Assembly: GCF_029201445.1 (NCBI RefSeq)
Contig: NZ_CP102381.1
Coordinates: forward strand, 620,001-684,000
DNA length: 64,000 nucleotides
Source: Thiomicrorhabdus lithotrophica
GTDB taxonomy: Bacteria > Pseudomonadota > Gammaproteobacteria > Thiomicrospirales > Thiomicrospiraceae
Reading direction: 5' to 3'
Positions 3,123-62,441 of the stretch are shown in pieces (positions within the stretch are counted from its first letter, which is position 1; each line of letters opens with the position of its first letter). The notes below the pieces were generated by a model. It saw only the letters and a list, made by a program, of their open reading frames with translations, was not told the origin of the DNA and did no database searches. The position numbers were made by a program, and so were the translations under genes.

Positions 3123-3656
3123 CTATTTGTTTGCTGGAGCAGGCGTAAAGGTAACAGAAATACGTTTTTTCTCTGTTTCAGTGCTTTGTGCCTGCAATGT
3201 TTGATTGGCGATATCATAAAAAAGCCTTGGGCCTTTTATAATGTGTTTACCAGGTTGTTCAACTTGTGCATTACCAATCAGCAACACCGTTCTGTTTTGA
3301 GCATGATATTCAATTTTATTGGCTTTGCCCTTTAACCAGGCCTGGTCAATTTGACTGAAGCGCTTAAAACTAGCCTGCTTACCTGTGGCAATTACTTCTG
3401 TTACTTGATTGTTGGGGTGAGAAATATTAATCACATCTCCCTTTAACGTGAGGCTACCTTGGGTGACAATTACATTTCCGCTATAAAGACTTTTGCCTTC
3501 TTTTTCACTGGCTTTTAAACTGTTTGCAGAAATGTTTACTGGTTGTTGTTCATCTGGTTTACTAGGCGTGCTTTTGCTTTCGGTTGCCGCATTGGCCCCG
3601 CTTACAAAAATTAGGCTTAATAATAGGGTTGGAATAAAACGGTTCACTTTTTGCAT
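3123..3656 (-). CDS. lptA: Periplasmic LPS bridge protein LptA
   Basis: LptA polymerises into the beta-jellyroll bridge that carries LPS across the periplasm. The reading frame is open further upstream, but the start at 3656 is chosen: it gives a clean signal peptide (MQKVNRFIPTLLLSLIFVSG, ending ANAA), it sits one base after the lptC stop, and AAGGGA precedes it. The mature part (about 155 residues) has the OstA-like pattern KSLYSGNVIVTQGSLTLKGD and a C-terminal strand-rich region. One exact copy of the window's dispersed palindrome lies inside this gene and encodes DQAWL. Confidence 0.92.
   Translation of the reverse strand: MQKVNRFIPTLLLSLIFVSGANAATESKSTPSKPDEQQPVNISANSLKASEKEGKSLYSGNVIVTQGSLTLKGDVINISHPNNQVTEVIATGKQASFKRFSQIDQAWLKGKANKIEYHAQNRTVLLIGNAQVEQPGKHIIKGPRLFYDIANQTLQAQSTETEKKRISVTFTPAPANK
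3335..3346. repeat. ACCAGGCCTGGT palindrome, exact, inside lptA
   Basis: An exact copy read on the minus strand as GAC CAG GCC TGG TTA, coding DQAWL. Confidence 0.9.
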
Positions 3657-3657
3657 T

Positions 3658-4293
3658 TTATTGTCCCTTAGGGTGCGAGGATTGTGAAGAAGGCCACTTT
3701 TTTGGCTGCATATCATTAGGATGGTAAGTGCTTTTTACATCTAAAAGCAATTCAAATTCAGAGTTGGTTAAGTCCGCTTTAAGCCCAGTTCCTGTTGTCT
3801 CACCATTGTATTGTTTAATGAAAACTTTTGCATCTGTATAAGCTTGGTTTGTTTGACTGTTGTAGCTCAAGCTTTCGGTGTTTAAGGTCGTTTGTGATGC
3901 ACTATTTTGATCTGAATTTGTCATGCTGGTTTGAGTGATAACAACCTTACCCTTAAAGGTAACAACTTCATCGTTAGTGCTCTCACCCTTTAGACTAGAG
4001 AGGTTTGTTACAGAGTCTTTTTCAATTATCTGAACGCTAGGAGAGGTGAATTCACTTTTTTTAACTTCATCTTTGTAGTGAATGTTTTCAGCATGAATAA
4101 TGGTGTGTTTATCCTGTTCACCGGGTGCAATTTTCCAGATAGTCGTATCTTTTGCCTGCCAGCTGTAGGCCAGAGGCTGGCTAACAGCAACCTCAGTTTT
4201 TGAGGTCGATTGGTTTTGTTGATTGGCTATCCATAGAGCAACGGTTGCCAAAAGCAATGTAAGCAAAATAATGCGTAATCGGGAGAGGCGCAT
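3658..4293 (-). CDS. lptC: LPS export protein LptC
   Basis: LptC is the inner-membrane-anchored bitopic protein that passes LPS from LptBFG to LptA. The 211-residue product has one N-terminal membrane helix (about 7-24, IILLTLLLATVALWIANQ) followed by a periplasmic beta-rich domain with HAENIHYKD and a C-terminal TYHPN. It is about 20 residues longer than the E. coli protein, mostly in a Ser/Thr/Gln-rich stretch around 115-150. It lies between kdsC and lptA in the usual order. Sequence conservation in this family is low, so the call rests on topology and position as much as on motifs. Confidence 0.87.
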   Translation of the reverse strand: MRLSRLRIILLTLLLATVALWIANQQNQSTSKTEVAVSQPLAYSWQAKDTTIWKIAPGEQDKHTIIHAENIHYKDEVKKSEFTSPSVQIIEKDSVTNLSSLKGESTNDEVVTFKGKVVITQTSMTNSDQNSASQTTLNTESLSYNSQTNQAYTDAKVFIKQYNGETTGTGLKADLTNSEFELLLDVKSTYHPNDMQPKKWPSSQSSHPKGQ

Positions 4294-4315
4294 AGTGGTT
4301 TTAACTCAAAGCTAA

Positions 4316-4861
4316 TTAATTAGCTAAGTCTCTTAGGAAGAAGTCCATGTGCTGCTGCCAGCTGCCTTGCGAGCGCATAATGATTTCAGCAACTTCACGC
4401 ACACAACCTTGGCCGCCATTAAACTTAGAAATGTAGTCCACACGAGTTTTAACTTCATTATCGCCATCAAGAGGCGTAACGGCTAAGCCAATGCGCATTA
4501 AGATTGGTAAATCCAAAATGTCATCACCAATATAGGCAATCTCATCTAATTCAAGCCCAAGATCTTCAACCAGTTTTAAAAAAGTAGGGAGTTTGTCAGG
4601 AATGCCTTGAAAGACGTGTTTTACTTTTAAATCTTTCATGCGATTGGTAACAAGTTGTGATTTACGGCCAGTGATAATGCCAATCTCAACCTGGCTTTTT
4701 TGTAATAGAACGATACCGTGCCCATCACGAGTGTTGAAAGACTTATATTCAACACCGTTATCTCCATAAAATAGACGATTATCGGTTAACACGCCATCGA
4801 CATCTAAAATCAGAAGTTTAATTTTTTTTGCTTTTTCAGCCAGGTGTTGAGGGATGTTCAT
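4316..4861 (-). CDS. kdsC: 3-deoxy-D-manno-octulosonate 8-phosphate phosphatase KdsC
   Basis: KdsC removes phosphate from KDO 8-phosphate to give KDO for the LPS inner core. The 181-residue cytoplasmic HAD protein has motif I as LDVDGVLTDN (nucleophile and acid/base Asp), motif II as ITGRKS, the KdsC-type HVFQG segment and motif III/IV as YIGDDILDLPIL. This is a C0-type HAD with no cap, so the length fits. A GTG 10 codons upstream (4891) is open in frame. The ATG at 4861 is preferred because AAAAGGC precedes it at good spacing. The usual upstream partner kdsD is absent, and yrbG follows directly instead. Confidence 0.93.
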   Translation of the reverse strand: MNIPQHLAEKAKKIKLLILDVDGVLTDNRLFYGDNGVEYKSFNTRDGHGIVLLQKSQVEIGIITGRKSQLVTNRMKDLKVKHVFQGIPDKLPTFLKLVEDLGLELDEIAYIGDDILDLPILMRIGLAVTPLDGDNEVKTRVDYISKFNGGQGCVREVAEIIMRSQGSWQQHMDFFLRDLAN

Positions 4862-4939
4862 GTTTAAGCCTTTTTGATTGCTTTTAGGCACCTTAATTTA
4901 AAAGTACCTGAAAGTGTCATTGAATATTTGGCTTATACT

Positions 4940-5929
4940 TTAAACAGCTATAGAGCGGAAGTAAAGTAAGATTAAGAATGCAATAAATAGCAAGACCAGC
5001 AAAATACCTTGAGACCTTTGGATTACCGCTTTGCCTTTGCGAGGAATTGCCATTAATAACATTGCTAGTGTGAAGCCAAGCATGATTGGCATATCAAGAT
5101 AGAGTACCGATGAATCAAGCAATGACGGAGCAAGCAGGGCTGGAACGGCAAGTACGGCTAATATATTGAATAAGTTTGAACCAACAATGTTACCAATCAT
5201 TAAATCGGCTTCGTTTTTACGTGCTGCGGAAATCGCTGCGGCAAGTTCAGGTAAGCTGGTACCAATCGCAATGATGGTCAAACCAATTACCACTTCAGGC
5301 ACTTCAAAGTAATTGGCAATATCCACTGCGCCAGAGACCATCATTTTGGCACTAATCATTAAAATGACCAGCCCCACTACCAGGAATAATAAGGCTTTAT
5401 TTTTAGTTAACTCAGGCATTTCTTCGAGTTCGTGTTTAGTATCATCCACTAACGGATCTTTAGGGTCTAATGATTTGTTGGCTTTAATCATCCAACCCAT
5501 AACGGCAACTAGGGCAATAACAAGGATAATACCGTCATAGAAACCTAGTTGGCCGTCTAAAACCAATAGGTAGGCACCAATTGAGATAGCTAATAAAACG
5601 GGCAGTTCACGTTTTAAGATTGAAGACTTAACCACAATGGGTGCAATAAGGGCGGTAAAGCCTAACACTAAACCAATGTTTGCAATATTTGAACCTACAG
5701 CGTTACCAATTGCTAAGCCGGGACTATTGTCAAGAGAGGCTAAAGTAGCAACCACTACTTCAGGCATTGAGGTACCAAAACCTAGTACGACTACACCAAT
5801 AACGAGTGGTGAAATAGAGAGATGTTTGGCGGTACTGGCTGCTCCGTCAATAAAGATATCAGAACTCCATACAAGAAGCGCTAATCCAATAATGAGAAGT
5901 AAGCTAGGGAGCAACAACGTTGTTAGCAT
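4940..5929 (-). CDS. yrbG: CaCA-family calcium/sodium antiporter (YrbG type)
   Basis: This is an inner-membrane cation antiporter with about 10 helices. The two inverted alpha repeats that define the CaCA family are clear: GFGTSMPEVVVA..GNAVGSNIANIGL near 51-90 and AIGTSLPELAAA..GNIVGSNLFNIL near 220-260. A charged cytoplasmic loop (about 155-180, DPKDPLVDDTKHELEEMPEL) separates the halves. The start is either the ATG at 5929 or a TTG at 5932, with AAGG upstream. Its place beside kdsC-lptCAB matches the E. coli yrbG neighbourhood. The ion it moves in vivo cannot be read from the sequence. Confidence 0.9.
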   Translation of the reverse strand: MLTTLLLPSLLLIIGLALLVWSSDIFIDGAASTAKHLSISPLVIGVVVLGFGTSMPEVVVATLASLDNSPGLAIGNAVGSNIANIGLVLGFTALIAPIVVKSSILKRELPVLLAISIGAYLLVLDGQLGFYDGIILVIALVAVMGWMIKANKSLDPKDPLVDDTKHELEEMPELTKNKALLFLVVGLVILMISAKMMVSGAVDIANYFEVPEVVIGLTIIAIGTSLPELAAAISAARKNEADLMIGNIVGSNLFNILAVLAVPALLAPSLLDSSVLYLDMPIMLGFTLAMLLMAIPRKGKAVIQRSQGILLVLLFIAFLILLYFRSIAV

Positions 5930-5960
5930 CAATCTATCTGCCTTAAATAATTGTGGTTAA

Positions 5961-6291
5961 AAAACTCAATTCAGCATTATAACGAAAATCATTGTGGAAA
6001 TAAACTTGGTTTATGACTACGCATATCATTTTGTGTATTGAATGGTTATTTTATGGAGTATAGGTTGATTTTTTTATTTAAATTAAAATAAAAAAAGTTG
6101 CTTAGAAGATGGTTCAGTAATAGTAAGATACTAAAGCGACCTTTGCACCAGTTAATTCACGAACAAATGGCTAAAACGTATCTGGTTTTTGTTCATTTTT
6201 CTTTCGCGTCTAACTCATGCAAAGGTTTCTAAATCCGTTGCTTCTTGTTTGGATTGCCCAAAGGGTGAGCGTTTAAATTAAAGGTTTTTGA
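5961..6291. other. Intergenic region between divergent genes, no gene seen
   Basis: About 330 bp between yrbG (minus) and the half-DUF72 gene (plus). It is AT-rich around 6068-6100, as expected for divergent promoters. An 8-bp inverted repeat CCTTTGCA / TGCAAAGG lies at 6140-6147 and 6218-6225, too far apart to read as a hairpin. No gene, RNA or strong promoter match was seen. Confidence 0.5.
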
Positions 6292-6894
6292 GTGGAAAAT
6301 TTACAAGTCGGTACCTATGGTTGGCAATATGAATCTTGGATAGGAGGGTTTTATCCAGAAGATATTCCTGAAGATTGGCAGCTTGACTATTACAGCAATG
6401 CTTATCGTGTACTTTTAGTGCCCGAGCAGGCCTGGTTAAGTTGGAATGAAGTTGATTTTGAAGAGATTCTAGATGCCGTAGAGGGAGATTTTGGATTCTA
6501 TTTTGAAGTGGTTGATGACTTAGATAGTAATAAAGAAGTGCAGTTAACCAAAATCGTTGGTGTATTCTCAGAAACAGCTAAGGGTGTCGTGATGTTTTCA
6601 GAGAAAGAGAGATTTGAAAGCTCATGTTGCGGTTTACCGGTGACCCTTATTTCCAAAAGTCAGGTTCTACCGGGTTGGCAATGGAAAGTGCAAGGATTTA
6701 CCTGTTCTGGTGAGCCTTGCGGAGTGGTGATTGAATTAACTTCTCAGCCTAAAGAGCAGACTGCGCTTTTAAAATCTTTTGTGGGAGGCTTTCCTGATGG
6801 GTGTCAAGGTGCGCCACTGTTTGTTAAAGGTAGCGATATAGATATGACACAAGTCTATAATTTGAAAACGATTGGTGAGTTTTTAGGTTATTGA
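6292..6894 (+). CDS. Uncharacterised protein with a partial DUF72/YecE-like N terminus
   Basis: I do not recognise this 200-residue protein as a named family. The first 45 residues (VGTYGWQYESWIGGFYPEDI, then a DYYSNAYR segment) resemble the start of the DUF72/YecE TIM-barrel, where a GTSGWxYxxWxGxFYP pattern is followed by LxYYAxxF. The rest does not look like a TIM barrel and the usual DUF72 length is about 240-280. The middle has many acidic residues. Cysteines occur as SSCCG (about 105) and TCSGEPCG (about 141), with a last one near 166. The start is GTG with AAAGG 7 nt upstream. No signal peptide or membrane helix is present. The gene stands alone between yrbG and mla. Confidence 0.7.
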   Translation: MENLQVGTYGWQYESWIGGFYPEDIPEDWQLDYYSNAYRVLLVPEQAWLSWNEVDFEEILDAVEGDFGFYFEVVDDLDSNKEVQLTKIVGVFSETAKGVVMFSEKERFESSCCGLPVTLISKSQVLPGWQWKVQGFTCSGEPCGVVIELTSQPKEQTALLKSFVGGFPDGCQGAPLFVKGSDIDMTQVYNLKTIGEFLGY

Positions 6895-6971
6895 GTTTTA
6901 TTGATGGGTTTTTAGGTTATGAAACATGAATAAAGTGTTTAGAAATACCTGAAAATTTCGGTCAGGGTGTT

Positions 6972-6993: not shown

Positions 6994-7028
6994 TTTGTAT
7001 AATAGATTATTAATAAATACGTTAAAAT

Positions 7029-7040
7029 ACCAGGCCTGGT
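7029..7040. repeat. ACCAGGCCTGGT palindrome, exact, before mlaF
   Basis: An exact copy extended to TACCAGGCCTGGTA, about 50 bp before mlaF and downstream of the -10 candidate. It would therefore be transcribed in the mla leader. Confidence 0.9.
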
Positions 7041-7088: not shown

Positions 7089-7919
7089 ATGGTAAAAAAA
7101 AGTAAAAGCATGAGTGATCAAATATTAATTGAAATCAAAAACCTTACTTTTATGCGTGGTGATAGAAAAATCTTTGATGATATTTCATTCACTATTCCTA
7201 AGGGTAAAGTCACGGCAATCATGGGTCCAAGTGGTTCAGGAAAAACCACATTGCTTAAATTGATTGCGGGTCAGTTACAGCCAGACTCAGGTGAGGTTTT
7301 TGTTGAAGGTTTGAATGTTCATGAATTACCTCGTAAAAAACTGTATCAATTACGTCGTAAAATGGGCATGCTTTTTCAAAGTGGTGCTTTGCTAACGGAT
7401 TTGTCGGTTTTTGATAATGTAGCTTTTCCGTTACGAGAGCATACAAAGTTGCCTGAATCGGTGATTTATCCATTAGTGTTGATGAAGTTACAAGCAGTAG
7501 GTTTACGTGGTGCCAAAGATTTAATGCCTGCTGAGTTATCTGGAGGAATGTCTCGACGAGTGGCTTTGGCTAGAGGTATTGCTTTGGATCCTGAAATGAT
7601 TTTTTATGATGAGCCTTTTGTAGGGCAAGATCCAATTACTATGGGTGTTTTGGTTGAATTAATTCGTAAGCTGAATGATAGCTTGGGCTTAACAAGTGTT
7701 GTGGTTTCGCATGATGTTAATGAAGTCTTATCTATAGCTGATAACGTTTGTGTCTTGTCTGAAGGTAAAATTATTGCCAAAGGTACTAAAGAAGAACTTT
7801 TAAATGAGAAGTCAGGTTATGTAAATCAGTTTATAAATGGTTTGCCTGACGGGCCTGTTCCATTTCACTATCCTGCAGAATCGTATATGAATGATATGGT
7901 GCAACGTGATGAAAAATAA
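7089..7919 (+). CDS. mlaF: Phospholipid transport ATPase MlaF
   Basis: MlaF is the ATPase of the MlaFEDB complex, which moves phospholipids between the inner membrane and the periplasmic carrier MlaC to maintain outer-membrane asymmetry. The 276-residue protein has Walker A GPSGSGKTT (about 45-53), signature LSGGMSRR, Walker B MIFYDEPFVGQDP and the switch His in VSHDVNE. The C-terminal tail has the family's GLPDGPVPFHYP, which in MlaF contacts the partner subunit. Neither the ATG at 7089 nor that at 7110 (MSDQILIEI) has a strong ribosome site, so the start is uncertain by 7 codons. A short dyad GTGTC-N6-GACAC (7073-7088) abuts the first ATG. Confidence 0.93.
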   Translation: MVKKSKSMSDQILIEIKNLTFMRGDRKIFDDISFTIPKGKVTAIMGPSGSGKTTLLKLIAGQLQPDSGEVFVEGLNVHELPRKKLYQLRRKMGMLFQSGALLTDLSVFDNVAFPLREHTKLPESVIYPLVLMKLQAVGLRGAKDLMPAELSGGMSRRVALARGIALDPEMIFYDEPFVGQDPITMGVLVELIRKLNDSLGLTSVVVSHDVNEVLSIADNVCVLSEGKIIAKGTKEELLNEKSGYVNQFINGLPDGPVPFHYPAESYMNDMVQRDEK

Positions 7920-11220: not shown

Positions 11221-11985
11221 ATGTTTAACTTTACCGGTTTTTGGGCGCTTTTTATTAAAGAAATACGTCGTTTTTATTCTGTAGTAGTACAAACGGTGTT
11301 TGCGCCAGTCGTGTCGACTTTGCTGTATTTATTGGTTTTTGGCCAAGTTATTGCCTCTCAAATAGAAACCTATTCTGGTCTTTCATACAGTCAGTTTTTA
11401 ATACCAGGCCTGGTGATGATGGCAATTTTGCAAAACGCCTTTGCTAATACATCATCAAGTCTAATCCAGTCAAAGATGCATGGTAATTTAACCTTTGTGC
11501 TATTAAGTCCTATTTCACCGTTTGAATTTTATCTAGCTTTTGTTGCAGCTTCTATTGTACGTGGTCTTGCTGTTGGCTTAGGGATATTGGTGGTGGGTGC
11601 ATTTTGGTTTGATTTGACCTGGCTTGAACCTGGCTGGATTATTCTATTTGCGGTGTTAAGTGCTGCAATGATGGGTGGCTTAGGAATGTTGGCTGGTATT
11701 GTTTCGGAAAAATATGATCATTTAGCCGCGTTTCAAAATTTTATTATCATGCCTTTGACCTTTTTAAGCGGCGTGTTTTATTCCATTCATGCTTTGCCTG
11801 AGTTTTGGCAGCAGGCTTCACACTTTAATCCTTTCTTCTATATGGTAGATGGGTTTAGATACGGATTTTTTCAGCAGTCTGACGTATCAATTTATCTAAG
11901 TTTAACGGTGACAACTATTTTTGTGGTTTTGGTTTCTGCGATAAATCTGATTTTATTGAACAAAGGCGTTAAAATACGCCAATAA
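11221..11985 (+). CDS. yadH: ABC-2 type exporter permease (YadH-like)
   Basis: A 254-residue inner-membrane protein with six predicted helices and the ABC-2 pattern: an N-terminal FIKEIRRFY elbow helix, PGLVMMAILQNAF, and the signature region PLTFLSGVFYSIHALPEFWQ before the last helices. It directly abuts its ATPase gene and is surely co-expressed. The exported molecule cannot be told from the sequence. An exact copy of the dispersed palindrome lies in codons 61-65 (IPGLV). Confidence 0.88.
   Translation: MFNFTGFWALFIKEIRRFYSVVVQTVFAPVVSTLLYLLVFGQVIASQIETYSGLSYSQFLIPGLVMMAILQNAFANTSSSLIQSKMHGNLTFVLLSPISPFEFYLAFVAASIVRGLAVGLGILVVGAFWFDLTWLEPGWIILFAVLSAAMMGGLGMLAGIVSEKYDHLAAFQNFIIMPLTFLSGVFYSIHALPEFWQQASHFNPFFYMVDGFRYGFFQQSDVSIYLSLTVTTIFVVLVSAINLILLNKGVKIRQ
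11403..11414. repeat. ACCAGGCCTGGT palindrome, exact, inside yadH
   Basis: An exact copy read as CCA GGC CTG GTG, a different reading frame from the lptA, xerD and valS copies; it encodes PGLV. Confidence 0.9.
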
Positions 11986-12276: not shown

Positions 12277-13569
<1,293 letters not shown>

Positions 13570-13601: not shown

Positions 13602-13613
13602 ACCAGGCCTGGT
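13602..13613. repeat. ACCAGGCCTGGT palindrome, exact, murA-hisG gap
   Basis: Lies 33 bp after murA and 56 bp before hisG. There is no T-run, so it does not look like a terminator. Confidence 0.9.
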
Positions 13614-15604: not shown

Positions 15605-15623
15605 ATATTTTTGTTTGAATAAT

Positions 15624-15658
15624 AACCACCTTGTCCTACCAGGCCTGGTGGTTTTTTT
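15624..15658 (+). terminator. Terminator after hisD that uses half of the dispersed palindrome
   Basis: AACCACC (15624-15630) pairs with GGTGGTT (15647-15653), followed by seven T. The right arm is partly formed by the GGT of the ACCAGGCCTGGT copy at 15638-15649, so the transcript can fold either as the terminator stem or as the palindrome stem. Confidence 0.65.
15638..15649. repeat. ACCAGGCCTGGT palindrome, exact, inside the hisD terminator
   Basis: An exact 12-bp copy flanked by T and G, so the outward extension seen at other sites is lost here. Confidence 0.9.
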
Positions 15659-15686
15659 ATATCTGGTTTTTTAAGGGTTTATTGAC

Positions 15687-20660: not shown

Positions 20661-20672
20661 ACCAGGCCTGGT
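20661..20672. repeat. ACCAGGCCTGGT palindrome, exact, after radA
   Basis: The longest perfect copy: symmetry extends to 22 bp (20656-20677), with arms AAGTT and AACTT outside the 12-bp core. It lies 18 bp after the radA stop. Confidence 0.92.
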
Positions 20673-22655: not shown

Positions 22656-23480
22656 CTAGTGGATTCCTAGAAAGTCTTGCCATTCAGCAAATAAATCTGG
22701 AGTGGTAGCCGCTACCGCTGAACGTTTAACTACCTTAGCAACTACAACGCTTTCATTGTTTAAGTCACAGCTGTAACCTCCAGCTTCTTCTAAGATTAGC
22801 CAGCCTGCAGCATAATCCCAAATATTCTGTGCGCCATGTAAATAAATTTGTCCACGACCAGCGGCAATCCAACACCAGTCTAAACAGACTGAACCAAAGC
22901 TTCGTTGAGAAGAGTAAGGACATTGTGTTGCAAGTTTGGTTGCAAGTTCAGGCGTTAGGCGTTTAAAATCAATAATTCCACTACACTGCTTTAAAGCTTG
23001 TTTAGCAGTATTCGCAATTAAAGGTTTATTGTTAAGTTCAGCCCCTTGTCCTAATCGAGCAGTGAATATCTCGTCTCTACTAGGGTCATATACCAGGCCT
23101 GCTACTAATTTACCTTTTACCATTAATGCTAAAGAGACCGAATAAACGGGGATGCCGATTGCAAAATTACTCGTGCCATCAACAGGGTCTAAAATCCAAC
23201 AGCCTGAATCGCTATTCATAGCTGCTTCTTGTTCATCTACTGAAGATTCTTCACCTAGAAAAGCGTATTGTGGCCAATTCTCTTCTAGAAAAGCCTGAGT
23301 CTTTTTTTGCATTTCAGTGTCGGCTTCCGTTAATAGAGAGCCGTCAGGTTTTTCTTGAGCAATAACTTGTTCAAAGCGCGCTAATACTTCTTTTTTTGCG
23401 AGTTCAATAATACCTGCTTGCAATGATTTCCACTGCGTATCATTTTGAAACGGGTGGTTAATAGAGATATTACTCGTCAT
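22656..23480 (-). CDS. Inositol-monophosphatase-family phosphatase
   Basis: A 274-residue member of the FIG/IMPase superfamily, which uses Mg2+ to hydrolyse small phosphomonoesters. It has the first metal motif GEESS, the second as ILDPVDGTSNF (usually DPLDGTTNF), and the late WDYAAGWLILEEAGG. These fit SuhB, HisN or CysQ-like enzymes; the sequence does not decide which. The start overlaps the 3' end of the CNNM gene by 11 bp, so the two are probably co-transcribed. A near-copy of the dispersed palindrome (23091-23104) codes AGLVYD. Confidence 0.87.
   Translation of the reverse strand: MTSNISINHPFQNDTQWKSLQAGIIELAKKEVLARFEQVIAQEKPDGSLLTEADTEMQKKTQAFLEENWPQYAFLGEESSVDEQEAAMNSDSGCWILDPVDGTSNFAIGIPVYSVSLALMVKGKLVAGLVYDPSRDEIFTARLGQGAELNNKPLIANTAKQALKQCSGIIDFKRLTPELATKLATQCPYSSQRSFGSVCLDWCWIAAGRGQIYLHGAQNIWDYAAGWLILEEAGGYSCDLNNESVVVAKVVKRSAVAATTPDLFAEWQDFLGIH
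23091..23104. repeat. Near-copy of the palindrome inside the IMPase-family gene
   Basis: TACCAGGCCTGCTA has one mismatch from the core. On the minus strand it reads GCA GGC CTG GTA, coding AGLV, as in murA and xerD. Confidence 0.75.
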
Positions 23481-25847: not shown

Positions 25848-25859
25848 ACCAGGCCTGCT
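25848..25859. repeat. Near-copy of the palindrome between ypjD and ffh
   Basis: ACCAGGCCTGCT, one mismatch, preceded by AAAGTT as in the extended copies. It sits in a divergent gap, about 50 bp before a TATAAT (25907-25912) that could serve ffh. Confidence 0.75.
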
Positions 25860-29709: not shown

Positions 29710-29794
29710 TGCTTTTCAAGATAGTCAATTAGTTAAATAATAAGTATCTAGCTTTTACGGATTAATAACTTCACTTGAACCAAACGCTCTCCGC

Positions 29795-29800
29795 TATACT
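29795..29800 (+). promoter_or_regulatory. -10 element very close to the xerD start
   Basis: TATACT ends 7 bp before the xerD ATG (29808), which has no Shine-Dalgarno sequence. A transcript from here would be leaderless or nearly so. A poor -35 (TTGAAC at 29775, 14-bp spacer) weakens the call. Confidence 0.35.
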
Positions 29801-29807
29801 AATCAGT

Positions 29808-30731
29808 ATGACTAAATTACAGCCATCTAAAATAATCGTTCAACTGCATCCTAAAGTAGCCGAGTTTTTGAGTTATTTGCAACTTTCTGAAGGATTAAGC
29901 CCTAATACGCTTTCTGCCTATCAAAGAGATTTGAAGCTTTACCAGGCCTGGTTATCTGATATTCAACAGCAGACTGTTGAAATGGTTTCTGCTGAAGGTA
30001 TAGAGGCTTTTATGCTCTACCTTCAAGAAGAGGGACGTAAAGAGAAAAGTAATGCTCGATTACTCTCTACCTTGAAGCGTTTTTACCAGTGGGGGGCAAG
30101 TAACGAATATTTTGATGCCGATCCAACGGGTCTGGTCAAGGCACCGAAGCTACCGCAAAGTATCCCTAAGGTCATTACAGAAGCACAGGTTGAAGCATTG
30201 CTGTACTCGCCTGATGAATTCACACCTTTAGGTATAAGGGATAGAGCTATATTAGAGTTAATGTATGCTAGTGGTTTACGTGTTTCTGAAGTCGTTGAGT
30301 TACCGTTTGAGCAAATTAATTTGTCAGCAGGCCTGGTACAAGTGACAGGAAAGGGAAGTAAGGAGCGTATTGTTCCTATTGGTGAAGTGGCGATTGAGTG
30401 GATTGAAAAATACATTGCTGAAGCTCGTCCTACATTAACTAAAAATAAATGGGTGCATACGCTGTTTATTTCAAGAATTGGTCGTCCTATGACGCGTCAG
30501 ACTTTGTGGCATAGAGTTAAAAATTTAGCGTTTGATGCAGGCATTCACACCAAGCTTTCACCTCATACATTAAGGCATGCCTTTGCGACGCATTTAATCA
30601 ATCATGGTGCGGATTTAAGAACGGTTCAGTTGTTGTTAGGGCATAGCGATCTATCGACAACGCAAATCTATACACATGTGGCTAAAGAGCGTTTACATAA
30701 ATTACATCAACAACATCATCCACGCGGATAA
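29808..30731 (+). CDS. xerD: Site-specific tyrosine recombinase XerD
   Basis: XerD works with XerC at dif to resolve chromosome dimers. The 307-residue protein has the N-terminal SAM-like domain (LSEGLSPNTLSAYQRDLK) and the catalytic domain with Arg in ASGLRVSE, Lys in GKGSKERIVPIG, the HTLRHAFATHL box, the second His in LLGHSDLSTTQIYTHV and its Tyr nucleophile. The start at 29808 gives the normal XerD N terminus; a TTG frame from 29775 is open but has no support. dsbC follows, as in E. coli. XerC is not in the window. The gene carries one exact and one near copy of the dispersed palindrome. Confidence 0.94.
   Translation: MTKLQPSKIIVQLHPKVAEFLSYLQLSEGLSPNTLSAYQRDLKLYQAWLSDIQQQTVEMVSAEGIEAFMLYLQEEGRKEKSNARLLSTLKRFYQWGASNEYFDADPTGLVKAPKLPQSIPKVITEAQVEALLYSPDEFTPLGIRDRAILELMYASGLRVSEVVELPFEQINLSAGLVQVTGKGSKERIVPIGEVAIEWIEKYIAEARPTLTKNKWVHTLFISRIGRPMTRQTLWHRVKNLAFDAGIHTKLSPHTLRHAFATHLINHGADLRTVQLLLGHSDLSTTQIYTHVAKERLHKLHQQHHPRG
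29941..29952. repeat. ACCAGGCCTGGT palindrome, exact, inside xerD
   Basis: Reads TAC CAG GCC TGG TTA, coding YQAWL, in the same frame as the lptA and valS copies. A second near-copy GCAGGCCTGGTA in the same gene (30328-30339) codes AGLV. Confidence 0.9.
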
Positions 30732-31739: not shown

Positions 31740-32468
31740 TTATAGTTCGCCCCACTTTTTGCGTTTACCTGGTGCTCTGAAGAAAAACCCTATAATTAAA
31801 CCAAGTAGTAAAACCCCACCACCCGTTATAAACCATTGACGTTTTAGAGAGTCATTAGATTGATCAATCTGTTCTTTCATAATCGCATTTTGGTTCTCTA
31901 GTTGGCTTAAACGCATTTTCATTTCTTGGTTCTGCTCATCAAGTTCAACTGCATTGCTAGAAATAATTTTTAGACGTTCTAACTCTTTACCGATTTCAAA
32001 TTTTTCTTGTTTGATTGTAGAAAGTTGAGAGTCTGTGTCTTCATAACGTGTTTTTAAAGTAGATAATTCTTGTTGAAGGGCATTAAATTTTTCTTCAATG
32101 TCAGTTGTTTTCTTAATTTGTATTGCTAGACGATCTTTAGCAACAGGCTGGTTTTGCAAAACAATAGAGGGTAACCAGCCAATATAGGTTTTACCTGCTT
32201 TCTTGTATTGAACTTGTGCCCAACCCTTTTTGTCCACTTCTAAAATTTTGACGGCTTCACCAGATTTTAACATGCGTGAAATTTTGTATTTATATCCAGC
32301 AGCGCGTCGCATAGGGACTTCCAAAGAGTCACTGATATAATTGGTATAACCTTTTGTTGCGGCATGAGTTGTTGTAACAGGGGCTGAAACACCAAGCGTT
32401 GCAATCAAGAGCATACTTAAAGAAGTATGTTTTACAGAGTTAGCATTAAAGCTGCTGAATTTTGTCAT
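31740..32468 (-). CDS. SH3-domain membrane protein (YgiM / TIGR04211 type)
   Basis: A 242-residue envelope protein. It has a signal-like N terminus (about 1-36), a bacterial SH3 domain (about 42-108, [19 protein letters not shown] and [20 protein letters not shown]), a long coiled coil (about 120-208), one C-terminal membrane helix (about 212-228, [19 protein letters not shown]) and a basic tail [12 protein letters not shown]. This is the YgiM architecture. YgiM function is not settled. The start overlaps the valS 3' end by 23 bp; AGAGGC lies 6 nt upstream within valS, so the two genes are translationally linked. Confidence 0.87.
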
Positions 32469-35214
32469 GTTGAGCCTCTAAATTATTAAGAGCAATTTCG
32501 TAGTCGCTTAATTTTTTACGTTCATTTGCAACTACATCTTCAGGTGCTTTGGCTACAAAGCCAGCATTGTTTAATTTTCCACTTAGGCGTTTAATCTCAC
32601 CTTGTAGTTTAGCAATTTCTTTTGCTAAACGCGCTAGTTCAGCATCTTTATCAATTAAACCAGCCATTGGGATTAGTACTTTCATTTCGCCAACTAAAGC
32701 TACGGCAGATTCTGGCGCGCTCGCTTCATCTTCAAGTACTGTGATGCTTTCTAGTTTCGCTAAAGTCTGTAGGTATACACGATTGTTATTTAACCAGGCC
32801 TGGTCATTGTCATTTAAACCAGCAAGAAGAACTTCTAATGCCTTGCTTGGTGCAATGTCCATTTCTGAACGAATTTTACGAACACCAACAATAAATTGTT
32901 TTACCCATTCCAATTCTGCAATGGCTGCACTATCAATTTTGCTCTCATCAGCTTGTGGATAAGGTTCAAGCATAATTGTGTTACCATGCTGACCAGCTAA
33001 TGGACCTACCGCTTGCCAAGCTTCTTCTGTGATAAACGGAATAATAGGATGTAGCAAACGAAGTAAGGCTTCTAAAACACGAACTAACGTTTTGCGAGTT
33101 CCGCGTTTAGCGTTATCAGAACTGTCTTTGTTTAGAATTGGTTTTGCCAGTTCTAAATACCAGTCGCAATATTCGTTCCAAGTAAACTCGTATAAAGTTG
33201 TTGCAGCTAAATCAAAACGATAGTTTTCAAAATGTTTGGCCACTTCAGATTCTACTTCTTGTAAACGGGACGTAATCCAGCGGTCAGCAAGTGATAGCTC
33301 AACTTCTAGAGACTCATCAACACCAGTGTCAAAACCTTCAGTGTTCATTAATACATAACGTGTTGCGTTCCATAGCTTGTTACAGAAGTTGCGGTAACCT
33401 TCAGCACGGTTTAAATCAAAGCGAATATCACGTCCAGTAGAAGCTAAAGATGCAAAGGTAAAGCGAATAGCATCAGTACCAAAAGCAGGAATTCCGTCTG
33501 GAAACTGTTTGCGTGTTGACTTCTCGATTTTAGCGGCTTTCTCTGGTTGCATCATGCCGTAAGTACGTTTTGCTACTAGGTCTTCTAGCTCTATACCGTC
33601 AATTAAGTCGATAGGGTCTAAAACATTCCCTTTAGATTTAGACATTTTTTGGCCTTCGCCATCTCGTACTAAACCGTGTACATAAATTTGCTTAAATGGA
33701 ACTTCGCCTGTGAATTTAAGCCCCATCATAATCATTCTGGCAACCCAGAAGAAGATGATGTCAAAACCAGTAACCAAAACAGATGTTGGGTGGAATTTTT
33801 CTAGTTCCGGTGTTTTTTCTGGCCAGCCTAGAGTAGAGAATGTCCATAGAGCCGAGCTGAACCAAGTGTCTAGTACATCGTTGTCTTGGCTAAGTACGAT
33901 ATCTGTCGCTAGATTATTTTTTTCACGGACTTCAGCTTCATCACGGCCAACATAGACTTTACCATTGTTGTCGTACCAAGCTGGGATACGATGTCCCCAC
34001 CAAATTTGACGAGAGATACACCAGTCCTGAATATTATTCATCCATTCAAAGTAAGTGTTTTCCCAGTTCTTAGGAACAAATTCAATATCACCGTTTTTAA
34101 CGGCATCAATAGCGGGCTTCGCTAGCTCTTGAACTGCAACATACCATTGGTCAGTCAAGAACGGTTCAATAACAGCATGAGATCGATCACCACGCGGTAC
34201 CATTAATGTATGTGGCTTGATATCTTCCATTAAGCCAAGTTCTTCTAAGTCCGATATGATTTGCTTGCGAGCTTCATAACGATCAAGCCCTTGGTATTTC
34301 TCAGGCGCTTCGTCGTTAATAGCTGCATCAATGGTGAAAATATTTAGCATAGGTAAGTCGTGACGTTTACCCATTTCATAGTCATTGAAATCATGAGCTG
34401 GCGTAATTTTTACACAACCAGTTCCAAACTCAAGGTCAACATAGTCGTCTGCAATAATTGGAATTTCACGGCCCACTAACGGTAGTGTGATTGTTTTACC
34501 TATTAGATGCTGATAACGCTCGTCATCAGGGTGAACGGCTACTGCCTGGTCTCCCAACATGGTTTCAGGACGAGTTGTGGCTACGACTAAGTGACCAGAA
34601 CCGTCAGTTAGTGGGTAACGCATGTGCCAAAGATTGCCTTGCTCTTCTTCTGAAACAACTTCTAAATCTGATACTGCAGTGTGTAGAATTGGATCCCAGT
34701 TAACAAGGCGTTTACCACGGTAGATTAAATCTTCTTCATATAGCTTAACAAAGACTTCTTTAACGGCATCAGAAAGGCCATCATCCATTGTAAACCGTTC
34801 ACGACTCCAGTCAGGAGAAGCGCCCATGCGGCGAAGTTGTTTAGTGATCGTGCCACCAGATTCTTCTTTCCACTCCCAAATCTTATCAATGAATTTCTCA
34901 CGACCCAAGTCATGTCGAGTAAGACCTTGTGCGGCTAGCTGGCGTTCGACAACCATTTGAGTTGCAATACCTGCGTGATCAGTACCTGGTTGCCAAAGGG
35001 TGTCGTTACCTTTCATACGGTTGTAGCGGATTAAGGTATCCATTATGGTATCTTGAAAAGCATGACCCATATGAAGACTTCCAGTCACGTTTGGTGGTGG
35101 AATCATAATGCAATAAGGGTCAGCGTCAGGTTTTTGAGCTTTGAAATAACCTTGGTTTTCCCAGGTCTGGTACCACTTAGTCTCGATAGTATTGGGGTCG
35201 AAATGCTTTTCCAT
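32446..35214 (-). CDS. valS: Valyl-tRNA synthetase
   Basis: ValS charges tRNA-Val and edits threonine mischarging. The 922-residue class I synthetase has the HIGH-type motif in [16 protein letters not shown], the editing CP1 domain (about 190-340, [13 protein letters not shown]), [12 protein letters not shown], an anticodon-binding domain and a C-terminal coiled-coil arm (about 860-922). Length is normal. The start at 35214 is the family N terminus ([20 protein letters not shown]). holC and pepA, common upstream partners, are absent. One exact palindrome copy codes DQAWL, and a one-mismatch-per-half copy (CCAGGTCTGG, 35161-35170) codes YQTW. Confidence 0.97.
32793..32804. repeat. ACCAGGCCTGGT palindrome, exact, inside valS
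   Basis: On the minus strand it reads GAC CAG GCC TGG TTA, coding DQAWL, the same peptide as in lptA. Confidence 0.9.
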
Positions 35215-35354: not shown

Positions 35355-35366
35355 ACCAGGCCTGGT
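35355..35366. repeat. ACCAGGCCTGGT palindrome, exact, flagellin-valS gap
   Basis: Extended on the left (AAGTTACC) more than on the right (GGTAGGTT). It lies between the valS start and the flagellin terminator. Confidence 0.9.
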
Positions 35367-36840: not shown

Positions 36841-36852
36841 ACCAGGCCTGGT
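36841..36852. repeat. ACCAGGCCTGGT palindrome, exact, between convergent genes
   Basis: Preceded by TTT and followed by AGTTT; 44 bp after the Cys-rich gene and 16 bp before the shared terminator. Confidence 0.9.
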
Positions 36853-40307: not shown

Positions 40308-40319
40308 ACCAGGCCTGCT
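40308..40319. repeat. Near-copy of the palindrome before glnE
   Basis: ACCAGGCCTGCT, the same one-base change (G to C) as the copy between ypjD and ffh. It lies 53 bp before glnE. Confidence 0.75.
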
Positions 40320-43132: not shown

Positions 43133-43144
43133 ACCAGGCCTGGT
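43133..43144. repeat. ACCAGGCCTGGT palindrome, exact, between glnE and glnA
   Basis: Extended to AAGTTACCAGGCCTGGTAGC, 13 bp after the glnE stop and before the shared terminator. Confidence 0.9.
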
Positions 43145-52733: not shown

Positions 52734-52745
52734 ACCAGGCCTGGT
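52734..52745. repeat. ACCAGGCCTGGT palindrome, exact, between phoR and pit
   Basis: Extended to a perfect 20-bp palindrome AGTTACCAGGCCTGGTAACT (52730-52749), 53 bp after phoR. Confidence 0.92.
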
Positions 52746-55742: not shown

Positions 55743-55754
55743 ACCAGGCCTGGT
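55743..55754. repeat. ACCAGGCCTGGT palindrome, exact, between pstS and ferredoxin
   Basis: AAGTTACCAGGCCTGGTAAT, 20 bp after the ferredoxin stop on the minus strand. Confidence 0.9.
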
Positions 55755-56154: not shown

Positions 56155-56991
56155 ATGACTTGGTTAGATTTTCAAAATCGTTTTCAAAAAATTCGTGATA
56201 ACAAGGCTTTTGAACTTTTTGTTATTTCGGTAATTATCTTTTCTTCACTAATGATTGGTATTAGAACTTATGAACTACCAGGCCTGGCAGAAACGATTTT
56301 AATTTCTTTAGATTATGCTGTGACGTTATTTTTTGTTTTAGAAATCACGATTAGAATGGCTGCAGAAGACCGTTTTAGAGACTTTTTTAAGAAGGGTTGG
56401 AATATCTTTGATTTTGTCATCGTAGTGGTTAGTTTAATCCCACTAGATGACTCTGAATACGCTTTGATTGCCCGAATGCTTCGTCTATTCCGTGTAATGC
56501 GTTTAATTTCTTTTATTCCAGAGCTTAGAGTGCTAGTCAGCGCACTTATCTCTGCATTGCCAAGAATGGGTTATGTCGCACTATTGATGTTTATTATCTT
56601 CTACCTGTATGCGGTTATCGGCAATATGATGTTTGCGCAGCTTAACCCTGTGCTATGGGGAGATTTGGGTGTTTCTTTGTTAACGCTGTTTCGTGTCGCC
56701 ACGTTTGAAGACTGGACGGATGTTATGTATGAAGCTATGACGTTATATAGTCTAAGTTGGATTTATTTTATTACCTTTATCTTCTTCTCAGCGTTTGTCT
56801 TCTTGAATATGATGATTGGTATTGTGGTTGAAGTATTGGACGAAGAACACAAGAAAATGGAAGCAGAAGCCGAAGGTGTCTCAGAGGAATTAACGGCTAT
56901 TCAAAATCATGAACAGAAAGTAGAAGCAGAAATTGCCTTGTTGCATCAAAAGTTAGATGCTTTGTTGGCACAACAACAAACAAGCAGATAA
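56155..56991 (+). CDS. Voltage-gated-type ion channel (one-domain, NaChBac-like)
   Basis: A 278-residue six-helix cation channel subunit that would form tetramers. The voltage-sensor S4 has Arg every third residue (Arg107, 110, 113, 116 in RMLRLFRVMRLISFIPELR). The pore has S5 MGYVALLMFIIFYLYAVIGN, then the selectivity filter Thr183-Phe-Glu-Asp-Trp-Thr-Asp189, then S6 ITFIFFSAFVFLNMMIGIVV. The C terminus (about 228-278) is a coiled coil. The filter has more acid than the sodium-type TLESWSM and resembles the calcium-channel repeat TxEGWTDVLY. A near-copy of the dispersed palindrome (56277-56288) codes PGLA. Confidence 0.88.
   Translation: MTWLDFQNRFQKIRDNKAFELFVISVIIFSSLMIGIRTYELPGLAETILISLDYAVTLFFVLEITIRMAAEDRFRDFFKKGWNIFDFVIVVVSLIPLDDSEYALIARMLRLFRVMRLISFIPELRVLVSALISALPRMGYVALLMFIIFYLYAVIGNMMFAQLNPVLWGDLGVSLLTLFRVATFEDWTDVMYEAMTLYSLSWIYFITFIFFSAFVFLNMMIGIVVEVLDEEHKKMEAEAEGVSEELTAIQNHEQKVEAEIALLHQKLDALLAQQQTSR
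56277..56288. repeat. Near-copy of the palindrome inside the channel gene
   Basis: ACCAGGCCTGGC, one mismatch at the last base, coding PGLA in the S1-S2 region. Confidence 0.75.
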
Positions 56992-57137: not shown

Positions 57138-57148
57138 GATACTGTGTT

Positions 57149-58445: not shown

Positions 58446-58634
58446 GATCTATCCTTGTATGGTTACGCGAGTAAAGTCTTTTACTGGTTTGATTTAAATA
58501 TTGTAAGGTGAAACTTTGCATCAATGCCGTAACTTGTAATAAAATTACTTATATCTAATATTAAATAAACTTATTAGGCTGTTGTGTTGTTGGGCACCGC
58601 ATGGCAGTAGATGACATACATTATGGAGAAGACA

Positions 58635-58934: not shown

Positions 58935-58941
58935 AACTCAG

Positions 58942-59517: not shown

Positions 59518-59574
59518 GATGATATGTTTGGGTCTATTATCCGTTTAGTGCCTGTTTAGGCTTTAATTTGAAAA

Positions 59575-60426
59575 CTATTTTTTCTTTTTTAATTTTGGTT
59601 TGCACTGCTGCTCACAATCTATTGTATAACGCTGCTTAGATTCTATGGCATAGGCCGTCAACTGACCACCCCATAAACAACCCGTATCGGTTGAATGAAT
59701 ATGATAAGCATCTATTGCACCAAGCGTTGACCAATGACCAAAAAATATTTCATAGTCTTTGTTGCGGCGGTTGGGAAACACAAACCAGGGTTGATACTCT
59801 GATTGACTCTCTGTTGGCGCTGATTTGAGCTTAAATTCTAGCTTACCATTCGCATCACAAAAACGCATGCGGGCAAAGGCATTTACAATATAACGTATTC
59901 GCTCATAGCCTGATAAACTATTGTCCCAAGTATTTGGTTCAGAGCCAAAAAGATGATTGACAACAAAATTCTGCCAGTCAGGCTGTGCAAGCTGCAGCTG
60001 AACTTCTTTAGCATAGCCTTTGGCTTCTTTGATGGTCCACTGGGGAGGAATACCAGCATGAACCATAACCGCCTGATAAACAGGGTGACTGACTAGTAGT
60101 GGTTGCAGTCTTAACCAGTCTAATAGATTGTCGACGTCAGGCGCATTCAAGATATCGCTTAGCGTATCTGATTTAGACGTAAATTTTTCTAATCCAGCAT
60201 AGGCAGCTAAGAGGTGAAAGTCATGATTACCAAGCACGGTGTCCGCTTTACCCTGCTCACTAAGTTCCTTTACGAAGCGTAAGCACTCTAATGACTTTGG
60301 GCCACGATTGACAATATCTCCTACAAACCATAGGTGGTCATTTTCGGATTGGTAGTTAATAGATTTAAGCAAGCTTTGTAATTCATCAAAGCAGCCTTGT
60401 AAGTCGCCAATTACATAAGTAGTCAT
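59575..60426 (-). CDS. apaH: Diadenosine tetraphosphatase ApaH
   Basis: ApaH splits Ap4A into two ADP and can also act on Np4-capped RNA. The 283-residue protein has the metallophosphatase motifs GDLQGC, GDIVNRGP and LGNHDFH, then HAGIPPQW and the later FGHWSTLGA. The ApaH-specific LPxxPxW-type segment and C-terminal Lys-rich tail (KPKLKKKK) are seen. It follows rsmA by about 50 bp. The apaG gene that commonly lies between rsmA and apaH is absent. Confidence 0.95.
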   Translation of the reverse strand: MTTYVIGDLQGCFDELQSLLKSINYQSENDHLWFVGDIVNRGPKSLECLRFVKELSEQGKADTVLGNHDFHLLAAYAGLEKFTSKSDTLSDILNAPDVDNLLDWLRLQPLLVSHPVYQAVMVHAGIPPQWTIKEAKGYAKEVQLQLAQPDWQNFVVNHLFGSEPNTWDNSLSGYERIRYIVNAFARMRFCDANGKLEFKLKSAPTESQSEYQPWFVFPNRRNKDYEIFFGHWSTLGAIDAYHIHSTDTGCLWGGQLTAYAIESKQRYTIDCEQQCKPKLKKKK

Positions 60427-60475
60427 AGTGTGTTTCGAATAGTTTTAATTTTTTGATTCAACGTTAAATAAACCT

Positions 60476-61306
60476 TTATCGCGCTGATTGTAATTTAATT
60501 TGGTGATAAAGATTGGCTAATTCAACAAACTTTTCCACACTGATTGTTTCAGCTCTGGCAGTGGGGTTGATGCCGCAAGACTCAATTTGTTCCACATCTA
60601 AATAGCCCTTTAGAGTATTGCGCAAGGTTTTACGTTTTTGACTGAACGCCTGTTTAACTAATTCGGCAAAAGAGTCTTCATTATCAGCGACAAACGGTTT
60701 TTGTTTATAGGGTAGTAAACGCACTATCGCAGATTCTACTTTCGGTGGCGGAGTAAAGTTTTCTGGGCCAACGGTAAATAAGTATTCGGTCTCGCAAGCG
60801 TATTGAATCATCACGCTTAAACGTCCATAGGCTTTAATGCCCGGGGTTGCAGTAATACGGTCGACCACCTCTTTTTGCAACATAAAATGCATGTCTTGAA
60901 TGTGGTCGCTAAAGTTCAGTAAATGAAACATTAATGGGCTAGAAATATTGTAGGGTAGGTTGCCGACAATACGTAATGGTTGTTCAGGTTCAAACTCTAA
61001 TAAACTGCTGTAGTCAAACTTAAGAGCATCCGTATGATGAAGATTAAAAGCGGGCTTGGTGGCAAAACGAATCTTTAAAGGACCAATTAAATCATTATCG
61101 ATTTCAATAATATCCATGCGTTTAACTACATCAATTAATGGTGTGGTTAAAGCGGCTTCACCTGGACCGATTTCCACTAAATGGTTCTCAGGTTTGGGAC
61201 GAATAGCTGCGACAATTTGATCAATGACTCGCCCGTTATTCAGAAAGTTTTGTCCAAATTGTTTTTTGTGTTTGTGTCCTGATGGACGGCCGCTATTTTT
61301 TGCCAT
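60476..61306 (-). CDS. rsmA: 16S rRNA dimethyladenosine transferase RsmA (KsgA)
   Basis: RsmA dimethylates A1518 and A1519 of 16S rRNA late in 30S assembly. The 276-residue protein has the N-terminal KKQFGQNFLNN, AdoMet motif I HLVEIGPGEAALTTPL, acidic IIEIDNDL, catalytic IVGNLPYNISSPLMF, and the C-terminal FxPPPKVESAIVRL and FSQKRKTLRNTL. The ATG at 61306 is preferred to one at 61333 because it gives the normal N terminus. It follows pdxA by 57 bp. Confidence 0.95.
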   Translation of the reverse strand: MAKNSGRPSGHKHKKQFGQNFLNNGRVIDQIVAAIRPKPENHLVEIGPGEAALTTPLIDVVKRMDIIEIDNDLIGPLKIRFATKPAFNLHHTDALKFDYSSLLEFEPEQPLRIVGNLPYNISSPLMFHLLNFSDHIQDMHFMLQKEVVDRITATPGIKAYGRLSVMIQYACETEYLFTVGPENFTPPPKVESAIVRLLPYKQKPFVADNEDSFAELVKQAFSQKRKTLRNTLKGYLDVEQIESCGINPTARAETISVEKFVELANLYHQIKLQSAR

Positions 61307-61362
61307 AATTTTTCCAATACGAGTTGTATGCAAGCCAGTTTAAATTTGAGCTAATGAGTAGT

Positions 61363-62349
61363 TTAGCTTGATGGTTGTCCATTAGCCATTTGCAGAGCGA
61401 CTTTAATCGCATATTCAAAACTGCGAACATCTGCTTTGCCAGTACCCGCTAAATCTAATGCTGTACCGTGATCAACCGAAGTACGAATAAACGGCAAGCC
61501 TAAAGTTATATTTACTGCATTGCCAAAGCCCATGTGCTTTAGAACAGGTAGACCTTGATCATGATACATCGCCAAAACGGCATCCGCTTTTTCTAGGTAT
61601 TTGGGCGTAAATAACGTATCTGCAGGAAGTGGGCCACTTAAATTCATGGTTGTACCAAGTTTTTCTAAAACGGGTTCAATCACATCAATTTCTTCACGTC
61701 CCATATGACCGCTTTCGCCAGCATGAGGGTTTAAGCCAGTGACTAAAATATGTGGGTTATCAATTCCAAATTGTGTTTTTAAAGCATGATTTGTTATGTT
61801 TAAAACGTCGGTTAATAAAGGTTGAGTGATTGCTTTTGGTACATCCGCTAGAGGTAGGTGAGTGGTGGCTAAAGCGACACGAAGGCCTGGTGTTGCTAAC
61901 ATCATGACAACTTGATCGGTATTGCTGTCCTCGGCAAGTAATTCTGTGTGACCAGTAAAAGGTAAGCCTGCCTCATTAATGACCCCTTTGTGTACTGGTC
62001 CTGTCACCATGCCTGCAAATTCATGTTTTAAACAGCCTTGAATTGCACGTTTTAACATTTTAATGACATAGTCGGCATTAGCGGGGTTTAATTGACCATC
62101 TACCACAGGTTCAGCCGTTTTGATTTCATCTAAAATAAGCGTATTTGCCTGGCTGGGCTTGGCAGCTTGGTTGGCATCATAGTCTATAAACTGAATGTTT
62201 AACCCTAATAGGTCGGCTCTATGAGCCAGTAAAGCTTTATCAGCAATCACAACCAACTCAACAGGCCAGTTCTTCTGTGCCAGTTGCAAGACTAAGTCAG
62301 GGCCGATTCCAGCCGGTTCGCCAGAGGTAATTACTAATCGTTGAGTCAT
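61363..62349 (-). CDS. pdxA: 4-hydroxythreonine-4-phosphate dehydrogenase PdxA
   Basis: PdxA oxidises 4-phosphohydroxy-threonine in vitamin B6 synthesis. The 328-residue protein begins [20 protein letters not shown]. It has the metal-binding His residues in [30 protein letters not shown] and [15 protein letters not shown], and the substrate loop [18 protein letters not shown]. Length is normal. It sits between surA and rsmA as in E. coli. A near-copy of the dispersed palindrome (AAGGCCTGGTG) lies near 61882. Confidence 0.96.
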
Positions 62350-62429
62350 GTTTTTTCCGTTGTTCTAGTAGGGGTTTGAATTATTATTCTGGTAAATATG
62401 GCATAAATAAGCACAAGCAAGTAACAACT

Positions 62430-62441
62430 ACCAGGCCTGGT
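62430..62441. repeat. ACCAGGCCTGGT palindrome, exact, pdxA-surA gap
   Basis: TACCAGGCCTGGTAA, 80 bp before pdxA and 47 bp from the long hairpin that follows surA. Confidence 0.9.

Follow-up and report, generated by a model that had tools for sequence, protein, structure and literature searches.

The 64,000-nucleotide window of the Thiomicrorhabdus lithotrophica genome considered here (the whole stretch analysed, bases 620001-684000 of the genome contig NZ_CP102381.1) contains 14 exact copies of a 12-bp palindrome, ACCAGGCCTGGT. We infer from its distribution that this word, together with its softly conserved flanks, is a genome-wide signal by which the species recognizes its own DNA for uptake through a dedicated receptor, and give this interpretation a probability of about 65%. 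On the best reading of the comparative data the Thiomicrospiraceae would be a third family with uptake signals, beside the Neisseriaceae and Pasteurellaceae, and one in which the signals are palindromic and divided into dialects.

The abundance of the word is far beyond chance. No exact copy occurs in 100 dinucleotide shuffles of the window, and when up to two mismatches are allowed there are 25 sites, compared with a mean of 1.07 and a maximum of 4 in the shuffled sequences. The complete genome (one contig, 2,516,205 bases) contains 454 exact copies, or 1 per 5.5 kb, and none of the reversed word used as a control. Within the 464 kb examined in detail, made up of the window plus 20 stretches spaced evenly over the same genome, there are 98 exact, 39 one-mismatch and 51 two-mismatch copies, where trinucleotide composition predicts 0.035, 1.0 and 14.1 respectively; the counts are thus neither near a Markov expectation nor a matter of clustering in the window alone. 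Over-representation at 0, 1, 2, 3 and 4 mismatches is 2787, 38.9, 3.6, 1.2 and 0.9, a drop of 72-fold at the first mismatch and 11-fold at the second, and perfect copies outnumber singly mismatched ones by 98 to 39.

The inventory given in the original prediction, which was made from the letters of the window, held up well. All 14 exact copies are where it placed them, ten of them intergenic and four (3335, 11403, 29941 and 32793) within open reading frames (ORFs, called mechanically with a minimum of 80 codons), and its nine near-copies were recovered within 5 bases, at 6425, 13446, 22076, 23092, 25848, 30326, 40308, 56277 and 57126. The palindromic extension of up to 22 bp that it described is 22 bp long at 20661 and 20 bp at 52734. 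The sites are listed below, with relatives identified by our genome numbers (G003 and so on) and with the related words that they carry at the same places.

3335..3346, exact palindrome, in ORF 3123-3716, where the frame reads D-Q-A-W
7029..7040, exact palindrome, intergenic, upstream of a MlaF-like ORF (7089-7919)
11403..11414, exact palindrome, in ORF 11221-11985, frame I-P-G-L-V; 12 bases identical in G014 and G015
13602..13613, exact palindrome, 32 bp after a murA-like ORF; gap also occupied in G014, G015 and G023 (there as ACCGGCCGGT)
15638..15649, exact palindrome, after a hisD-like ORF; it lies within the stem (AACCACC...GGTGGTTTTTTT) of a T-tailed terminator
20661..20672, exact palindrome, 22 bp after a radA/sms-like ORF, in the 22-bp extended form; the G025 gap has AACAGGCCTG
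29941..29952, exact palindrome, in ORF 29775-30731, frame Y-Q-A-W-L; 12 bases identical in G014, G015 and G025
32793..32804, exact palindrome, in a valS-like ORF (32446-35214) near codon 805; 12 bases identical in G014, G015 and G025
35355..35366, exact palindrome, intergenic; the G023 gap has ACCGGCCGGT, those of G014, G015, G003 and G025 none
36841..36852, exact palindrome, between convergent genes, adjoining a separate terminator
43133..43144, exact palindrome, 12 bp after a glnE-like ORF and before a separate T-tailed terminator; G025 has CAGGCCTGTT there
52734..52745, exact palindrome, between convergent genes; the gap holds two copies of another dialect in G025 and likewise in G023
55743..55754, exact palindrome, between convergent genes; gap also occupied in G014
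62430..62441, exact palindrome, intergenic; gap also occupied in G014 and G015
6425..6436, plus strand, one-sided variant AGCAGGCCTGGT, in ORF 6292-6894
13446..13457, plus strand, one-sided variant AGCAGGCCTGGT, in the murA-like ORF
23092..23103, minus strand, one-sided variant (ACCAGGCCTGCT on the plus strand), in ORF 22656-23480
25848..25859, minus strand, one-sided variant (ACCAGGCCTGCT on the plus strand), intergenic
30326..30337, plus strand, one-sided variant AGCAGGCCTGGT, in ORF 29775-30731
40308..40319, minus strand, one-sided variant (ACCAGGCCTGCT on the plus strand), intergenic
56277..56288, one-mismatch variant ACCAGGCCTGGC, in ORF 56155-56991

No tRNAs or RNA families were found in the window. 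The terminator that follows hisD (15605-15660) has incorporated the motif in its stem; G003 has a terminator at that place without the motif.

Comparison of the window with the syntenic stretches of five relatives (G003, G014, G015, G023 and G025) indicates that the same places are used repeatedly, in part with a different word. Occupied gaps are held in common with G014 in 6 of 10 cases (p 0.004), with G015 in 6 of 9 (p 0.003), with G025 in 5 of 7 (p 0.003) and with G023 in 4 of 5 (p 0.075), all uncorrected for gap length; the G025 count takes in six related words, and in one of the five gaps counted there it is the full palindrome that occurs. The gap w35|w36 is occupied only in T. lithotrophica and G023, and the G003 stretch contains none of the words. 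Behind glnE the palindrome stands before the separate terminator in T. lithotrophica, G014 and G015, and G003 has the terminator without the motif. Three of the four in-gene sites have orthologues in G014, G015, G003 and G023; all three match G014 and G015 base for base and depart from G003 by substitutions, with no insertion or deletion apparent in 11-codon windows around them. At 11403, G003 retains the peptide IPGLV with three bases under the motif changed. The identity of the in-gene sites, taken with the base changes under a preserved peptide, points to selection or drive that would act on the DNA word itself, and to an origin of the sites by substitution.

The motif is a property of the family, and within the family it varies. 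In a survey of 95 genomes (60 Thiomicrospiraceae and 35 of other families) 26 of the family genomes, from four genera, are rich in ACCAGGCCTGGT, with 84-718 copies each, and each of the 35 others has 0 or 1. Within Thiomicrorhabdus itself, in which G015 is also placed, its count ranges from 0 to 718, and a search of genome contigs with the 18-bp extended form gave matches only in contigs of Thiomicrospira or Thiomicrorhabdus (16 stretches). A further 11 family genomes that are poor in ACCAGGCCTGGT (0-38 copies in the ten that were counted whole) carry other versions, bringing to 37 of 60 the genomes with some version. G023 has 1025 copies of ACCGGCCGGT, or 1 per about 2.8 kb, with a control count of 1, and other genomes have 0-15; the 15 copies in each of G024 and G012 (controls 2 and 3) are too few to call. 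The word AACAGGCCTG occurs 573 times in G005, 496 in G017, 272 in G025, 232 in G008 and 230 in G002, and at a lower level in carriers of the palindrome, including T. lithotrophica (64) and G030 (101). RCCAGGTTGGG is found 363 times in G055 and 397 in G057 and at most 5 times elsewhere, AACAGGCCGGGT 482 times in G020 and 275 in G004 (8 in G038, at most 3 in others), and G053 has 10 sites of CCAGGCTGGG in 94 kb, written out as AAAATCTRCCAGGCTGGG. The versions share related cores, with CAGG or CCGG, and A/T-rich flanks; in the asymmetric versions of G020, G053, G055 and G057 the A-rich arm is kept on one side. Among the 23 remaining family genomes, no comparable motif was seen in eight, for which 200-220 kb (G003, G024 and G019) or 40-80 kb (G010, G012, G013, G026 and G045) was covered; in the other 15, represented by 20 kb or less if at all, any dialect could have been missed, as could a rare one in the small samples. 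Genomes with less than 15 kb of sequence, two of them short contigs of only N, were left out of the motif sampling.

The asymmetric dialects permit their orientation to be examined. Counts on the two strands are near equal in G020 (242/240), G004 (137/138), G055 (166/197), G057 (193/204), G005 (289/284) and G017 (244/252), and in five genomes both orientations are present in every stretch with more than one site. Closely opposed pairs, 21-29 bp apart, were found in 60-80 kb each of G055 (three), G057 (three) and G020 (two). Hundreds of short dispersed sites that differ between species might also be expected of a polar recombination or segregation signal such as Chi or the FtsK-orienting polar sequences (KOPS), and we regard such a role as extremely improbable, given that the palindrome has no polarity and that the asymmetric dialects lie in both orientations and form opposed pairs.

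A mobile origin was also considered. A dispersed and mostly intergenic palindrome recalls the repetitive extragenic palindromes (REPs) moved by Y1 transposases (REP-associated tyrosine transposases, RAYTs), and T. lithotrophica has one match to the Y1_Tnp family. No such match is present, however, in 7 of the 26 palindrome carriers and 8 of the 11 carriers of other dialects (15 of 37), including G023 with its 1025 sites, no insertion or deletion is apparent in the 11-codon windows around three in-gene sites, and the conserved unit is just 12 bp with soft flanks; there is hardly any likelihood that the motif is of this type.

The anatomy of the sites argues for recognition as DNA. The flanks of ACCAGGCCTGGT favour AAnYT on one side and ARnTT on the other, that is, reading outward on both sides, A, A or G, any base, T, T. 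Sites within coding sequence show the same preference as the whole set, and the flanks are therefore probably read as DNA. The scores of the left and right flanks are correlated (r 0.32, shuffle standard deviation 0.10), as for a symmetric reader. The 45 one-sided copies, which have CAGGCCTGGT without the full palindrome, keep the flank preference on the full side and show it more weakly on the other, and 25 of the 39 single mismatches fall at the second or eleventh base.

A site for a methylase or a restriction system, with AGGCCT (the core named in the original prediction) or GGCC at its centre, is another of the roles considered. The core is palindromic, and two matches to C5 methylases are present in the T. 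lithotrophica genome. The suggestion is weakened by the lack of a PF00145 match in 17 of the 26 palindrome-rich genomes (this model covers C5 methylases, and other methylase families were not searched) and by the dialect RCCAGGTTGGG, which has neither AGGCCT nor GGCC. Moreover, recognition sites are usually shorter than 12 bases with flanks, and genomes tend to avoid them instead of accumulating them. We consider this role very unlikely. HIP1 (GCGATCGC) of the cyanobacteria is, like the present motif, a highly iterated palindrome; it is the shorter of the two, and methylation of the HIP1 core has been implicated.

Copies are placed preferentially at the ends of genes. In the 464 kb, 54 of the 98 exact copies are intergenic and 44 lie in ORFs, even though 88% of the sequence is coding (p 9e-25). 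Gaps between divergent genes are depleted, with 3 of the 49 sites in clean gaps (p 0.003), and those between convergent genes are enriched (16 of 49, p 0.03); the copies in ORFs are biased in frame (24/16/4, p 0.001). Such a distribution invites interpretation as a transcription terminator or mRNA 3'-end stem, another of the roles proposed from the window, and intergenic sites do show a mild excess of pairing between flanks (2 of 8 positions at p 0.02), with the copy at 15638 lying inside a terminator stem. As a general role this is quite improbable, because the sites in ORFs have flanks of the same bias, in which pairing is little raised (1 of 8 positions at p 0.02), and because the glnE terminator is separate and present in G003 without the motif; separate terminators adjoin the motif in several gaps. 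The observation that copies lie mostly apart from T-tailed terminators is borne out, as a T run of at least 5 starting within 4 nt on either strand accompanies only 4 of the 98 copies. Single sites, such as that at 15638, do serve in terminators.

The chromosome is used evenly, with 2-9 copies per 20 kb in the 20 stretches (dispersion p 0.75). The matS, Noc and parS sites are palindromic chromosomal sites bound by proteins, but are few and confined to the ter or ori regions. A binding site for a chromosome-wide cytoplasmic protein acting as a symmetric dimer, whether nucleoid-associated protein, segregation factor or global regulator, is in our view unlikely. It would account for the perfect palindrome with symmetric soft flanks and correlated flank scores, for the location at gene ends and for the even use of the chromosome. 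Against it are the absence of the clustering seen for matS, Noc and parS sites, the asymmetry of at least three versions, and the fact that species within a genus differ at hundreds of sites, which is hard to achieve under site-by-site selection; in addition, the motif-free G003 keeps its terminators at the gaps whose sequences were inspected. The nucleoid or chromosome-organizing site of the original prediction is likewise unlikely, with the even spread and the differences in word between species of one genus as difficulties. A variant in which the motif is the address code of such a protein, its recognition word having been rewritten within the genus at hundreds of places that are in many cases common to the species, seems to us similarly doubtful, and we know of no nucleoid protein with such code drift.

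Of the four roles originally offered, the uptake signal has the strongest support, and comparison with known systems explains why. In the account of Redfield et al. (2006; PMC1626085), known uptake sequences occur near once per kb without orientation bias and with spacing more regular than random, form some close opposed pairs, prefer non-coding DNA while having many coding copies, occur more often in perfect form than with a single mismatch, and originate by substitution. Taking these as seven marks, the Thiomicrospiraceae motif shows five: orientation, opposed pairs, non-coding preference, perfect-copy excess and substitution origin. The successive drops in over-representation of 72 and 11 are roughly like the 92 and 9 of Haemophilus influenzae and the 82 and 7 of Neisseria gonorrhoeae quoted by Bakkali (2007; PMC1939737), word length and background model being different. 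Like the DNA uptake sequences (DUS) of the Neisseriaceae, for which dialects and inverted pairs at terminators are described by Frye et al. (2013; PMC3630211), the motif is short, hugely over-represented and divided into dialects between related species, favours intergenic positions with many coding copies, and has inverted pairs tied to terminators as a point of likeness; it differs in sequence, in being palindromic in 26 of the 37 carriers, in the many relatives without a signal, and in a density in T. lithotrophica about five times sparser than one per kb. With the uptake signal sequences (USS) of the Pasteurellaceae it shares a core with AT-rich flanks, the excess of perfect over one-mismatch copies, substitution origin and clade-specific types, whereas the USS is non-palindromic, present near once per kb and reported (PMC1626085) to be more regularly spaced than random, and the Thiomicrospiraceae motif is spaced at random.

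In such a system a DNA receptor at the cell surface, most likely a minor pilin of a type IV pilus, would bind the signal in free DNA and draw DNA of its own species preferentially into the competence machinery and its ComEC channel, after which the incoming DNA would recombine at the homologous place. A minor pilin is proposed by analogy with ComP and with a 2025 prediction for the Pasteurellaceae (PMC12616744). Because DNA bearing the signal would be taken up more often, recombination would spread near-matching sites that mutate to the full signal, chiefly at gene ends and in permissive codons, where coding constraint is weak. A shift in receptor preference would then convert sites one by one, giving related species their own dialects at many common places, and loss of the preference would let sites decay. 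Uptake preference, receptor and drive are all inferred, as is loss in the genomes without a dialect. The ComEC family is present in 56 of 62 family genomes, including T. lithotrophica, and in 35 of the 37 dialect carriers, the other two being fragmented assemblies. G031, which is 99% complete and not a carrier, stands alone among such genomes in giving no ComEC match, in contrast to nearly all its relatives. The T. lithotrophica genome has 15 matches to pilin-type N-termini at E values up to 0.1.

Several observations weigh against an uptake signal. Two of the seven marks fail, namely density, which is lower, and regular spacing; among the first 100 of the 454 sites, the intervals fit a random placement (coefficient of variation 1.03, Kolmogorov-Smirnov p 0.42). 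The longest motif-free stretch among those 100 sites encodes EF-Tu, RpoB, RpoC, EF-G, ribosomal protein L2 and SecY, and in this rpoBC and ribosomal gene region the prediction that gaps should contain foreign DNA fails. Strand counts are unequal in G025 (158 vs 114), the exception among seven genomes, and the eight G053 sites examined include no opposed pair. ComEC also occurs in most non-carriers, for instance G003, G019, G013 and G026, and so does not discriminate. A pilin is common to all 20 genomes compared, with or without the motif; it resembles a major subunit, shows by eye no sorting by dialect, and is perhaps not the receptor. Matches to the GspH/FimT model were confined to 3 of 62 genomes, all non-carriers, and neither this model nor the pilin N-termini of the 20 genomes yielded a receptor candidate separating carriers from non-carriers. 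According to PMC12616744 the USS is not palindromic, and we found no uptake data for this organism.

Self-recognition by uptake sequences is described as known only in the Neisseriaceae and Pasteurellaceae in two papers (PMC1626085, 2006; PMC3630211, 2013). Neither the 12-mer nor an uptake signal in the Thiomicrospiraceae was found in the literature searched, which lacks most subscription journals. One of two 9-mer halves is printed in 396 papers, and the 20 of these whose titles were inspected deal with unrelated matters; no paper was found to link DNA uptake sequences with Thiomicrospira, and two found for natural transformation and Hydrogenovibrio concern other topics, judged by title and abstract. 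The kind of system is known, and what is new to us is its occurrence in this family, as a palindrome and in so many versions within it. If the interpretation is true, a third family, of sulfur oxidizers, has a palindromic signal in at least six versions, with many relatives that have none, and these would provide natural comparisons of how such codes arise, switch and vanish. The receptor would be directly findable by comparing sister species, and the signal would serve those working on these bacteria as a tag for donor DNA.

Some minor observations may be added. The common pilin (L160 6638-7254 and its orthologues in L161-L179, in our numbering of stretches) is almost constant at its N-terminus, GFTLVEIAIVLVIIGLLLGG, and varies strongly at its C-terminus. 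The word TACCAGGCCTGGTA is present in 36 stretches of viral contigs, one copy each. The second longest motif-free stretch among the first 100 sites contains LapA-domain ORFs and an ORF of 4336 aa; these very large genes, at G000:C1 about 151800-176200 (L222 4827-14043 and L223 1116-14126), comprise ORFs of 2687 and 413 aa with LapA-domain repeats and the 4336-aa ORF. In G024 many 11-12-mers are common to 8-10 separate places (L047, L066-L068 and L187-L192), which suggests a longer dispersed repeat family, and in one 20-kb stretch of G053 (L049, G053:C1:1-20000) words are repeated about 28-55 times, in what may be a CRISPR array or other repeat array.

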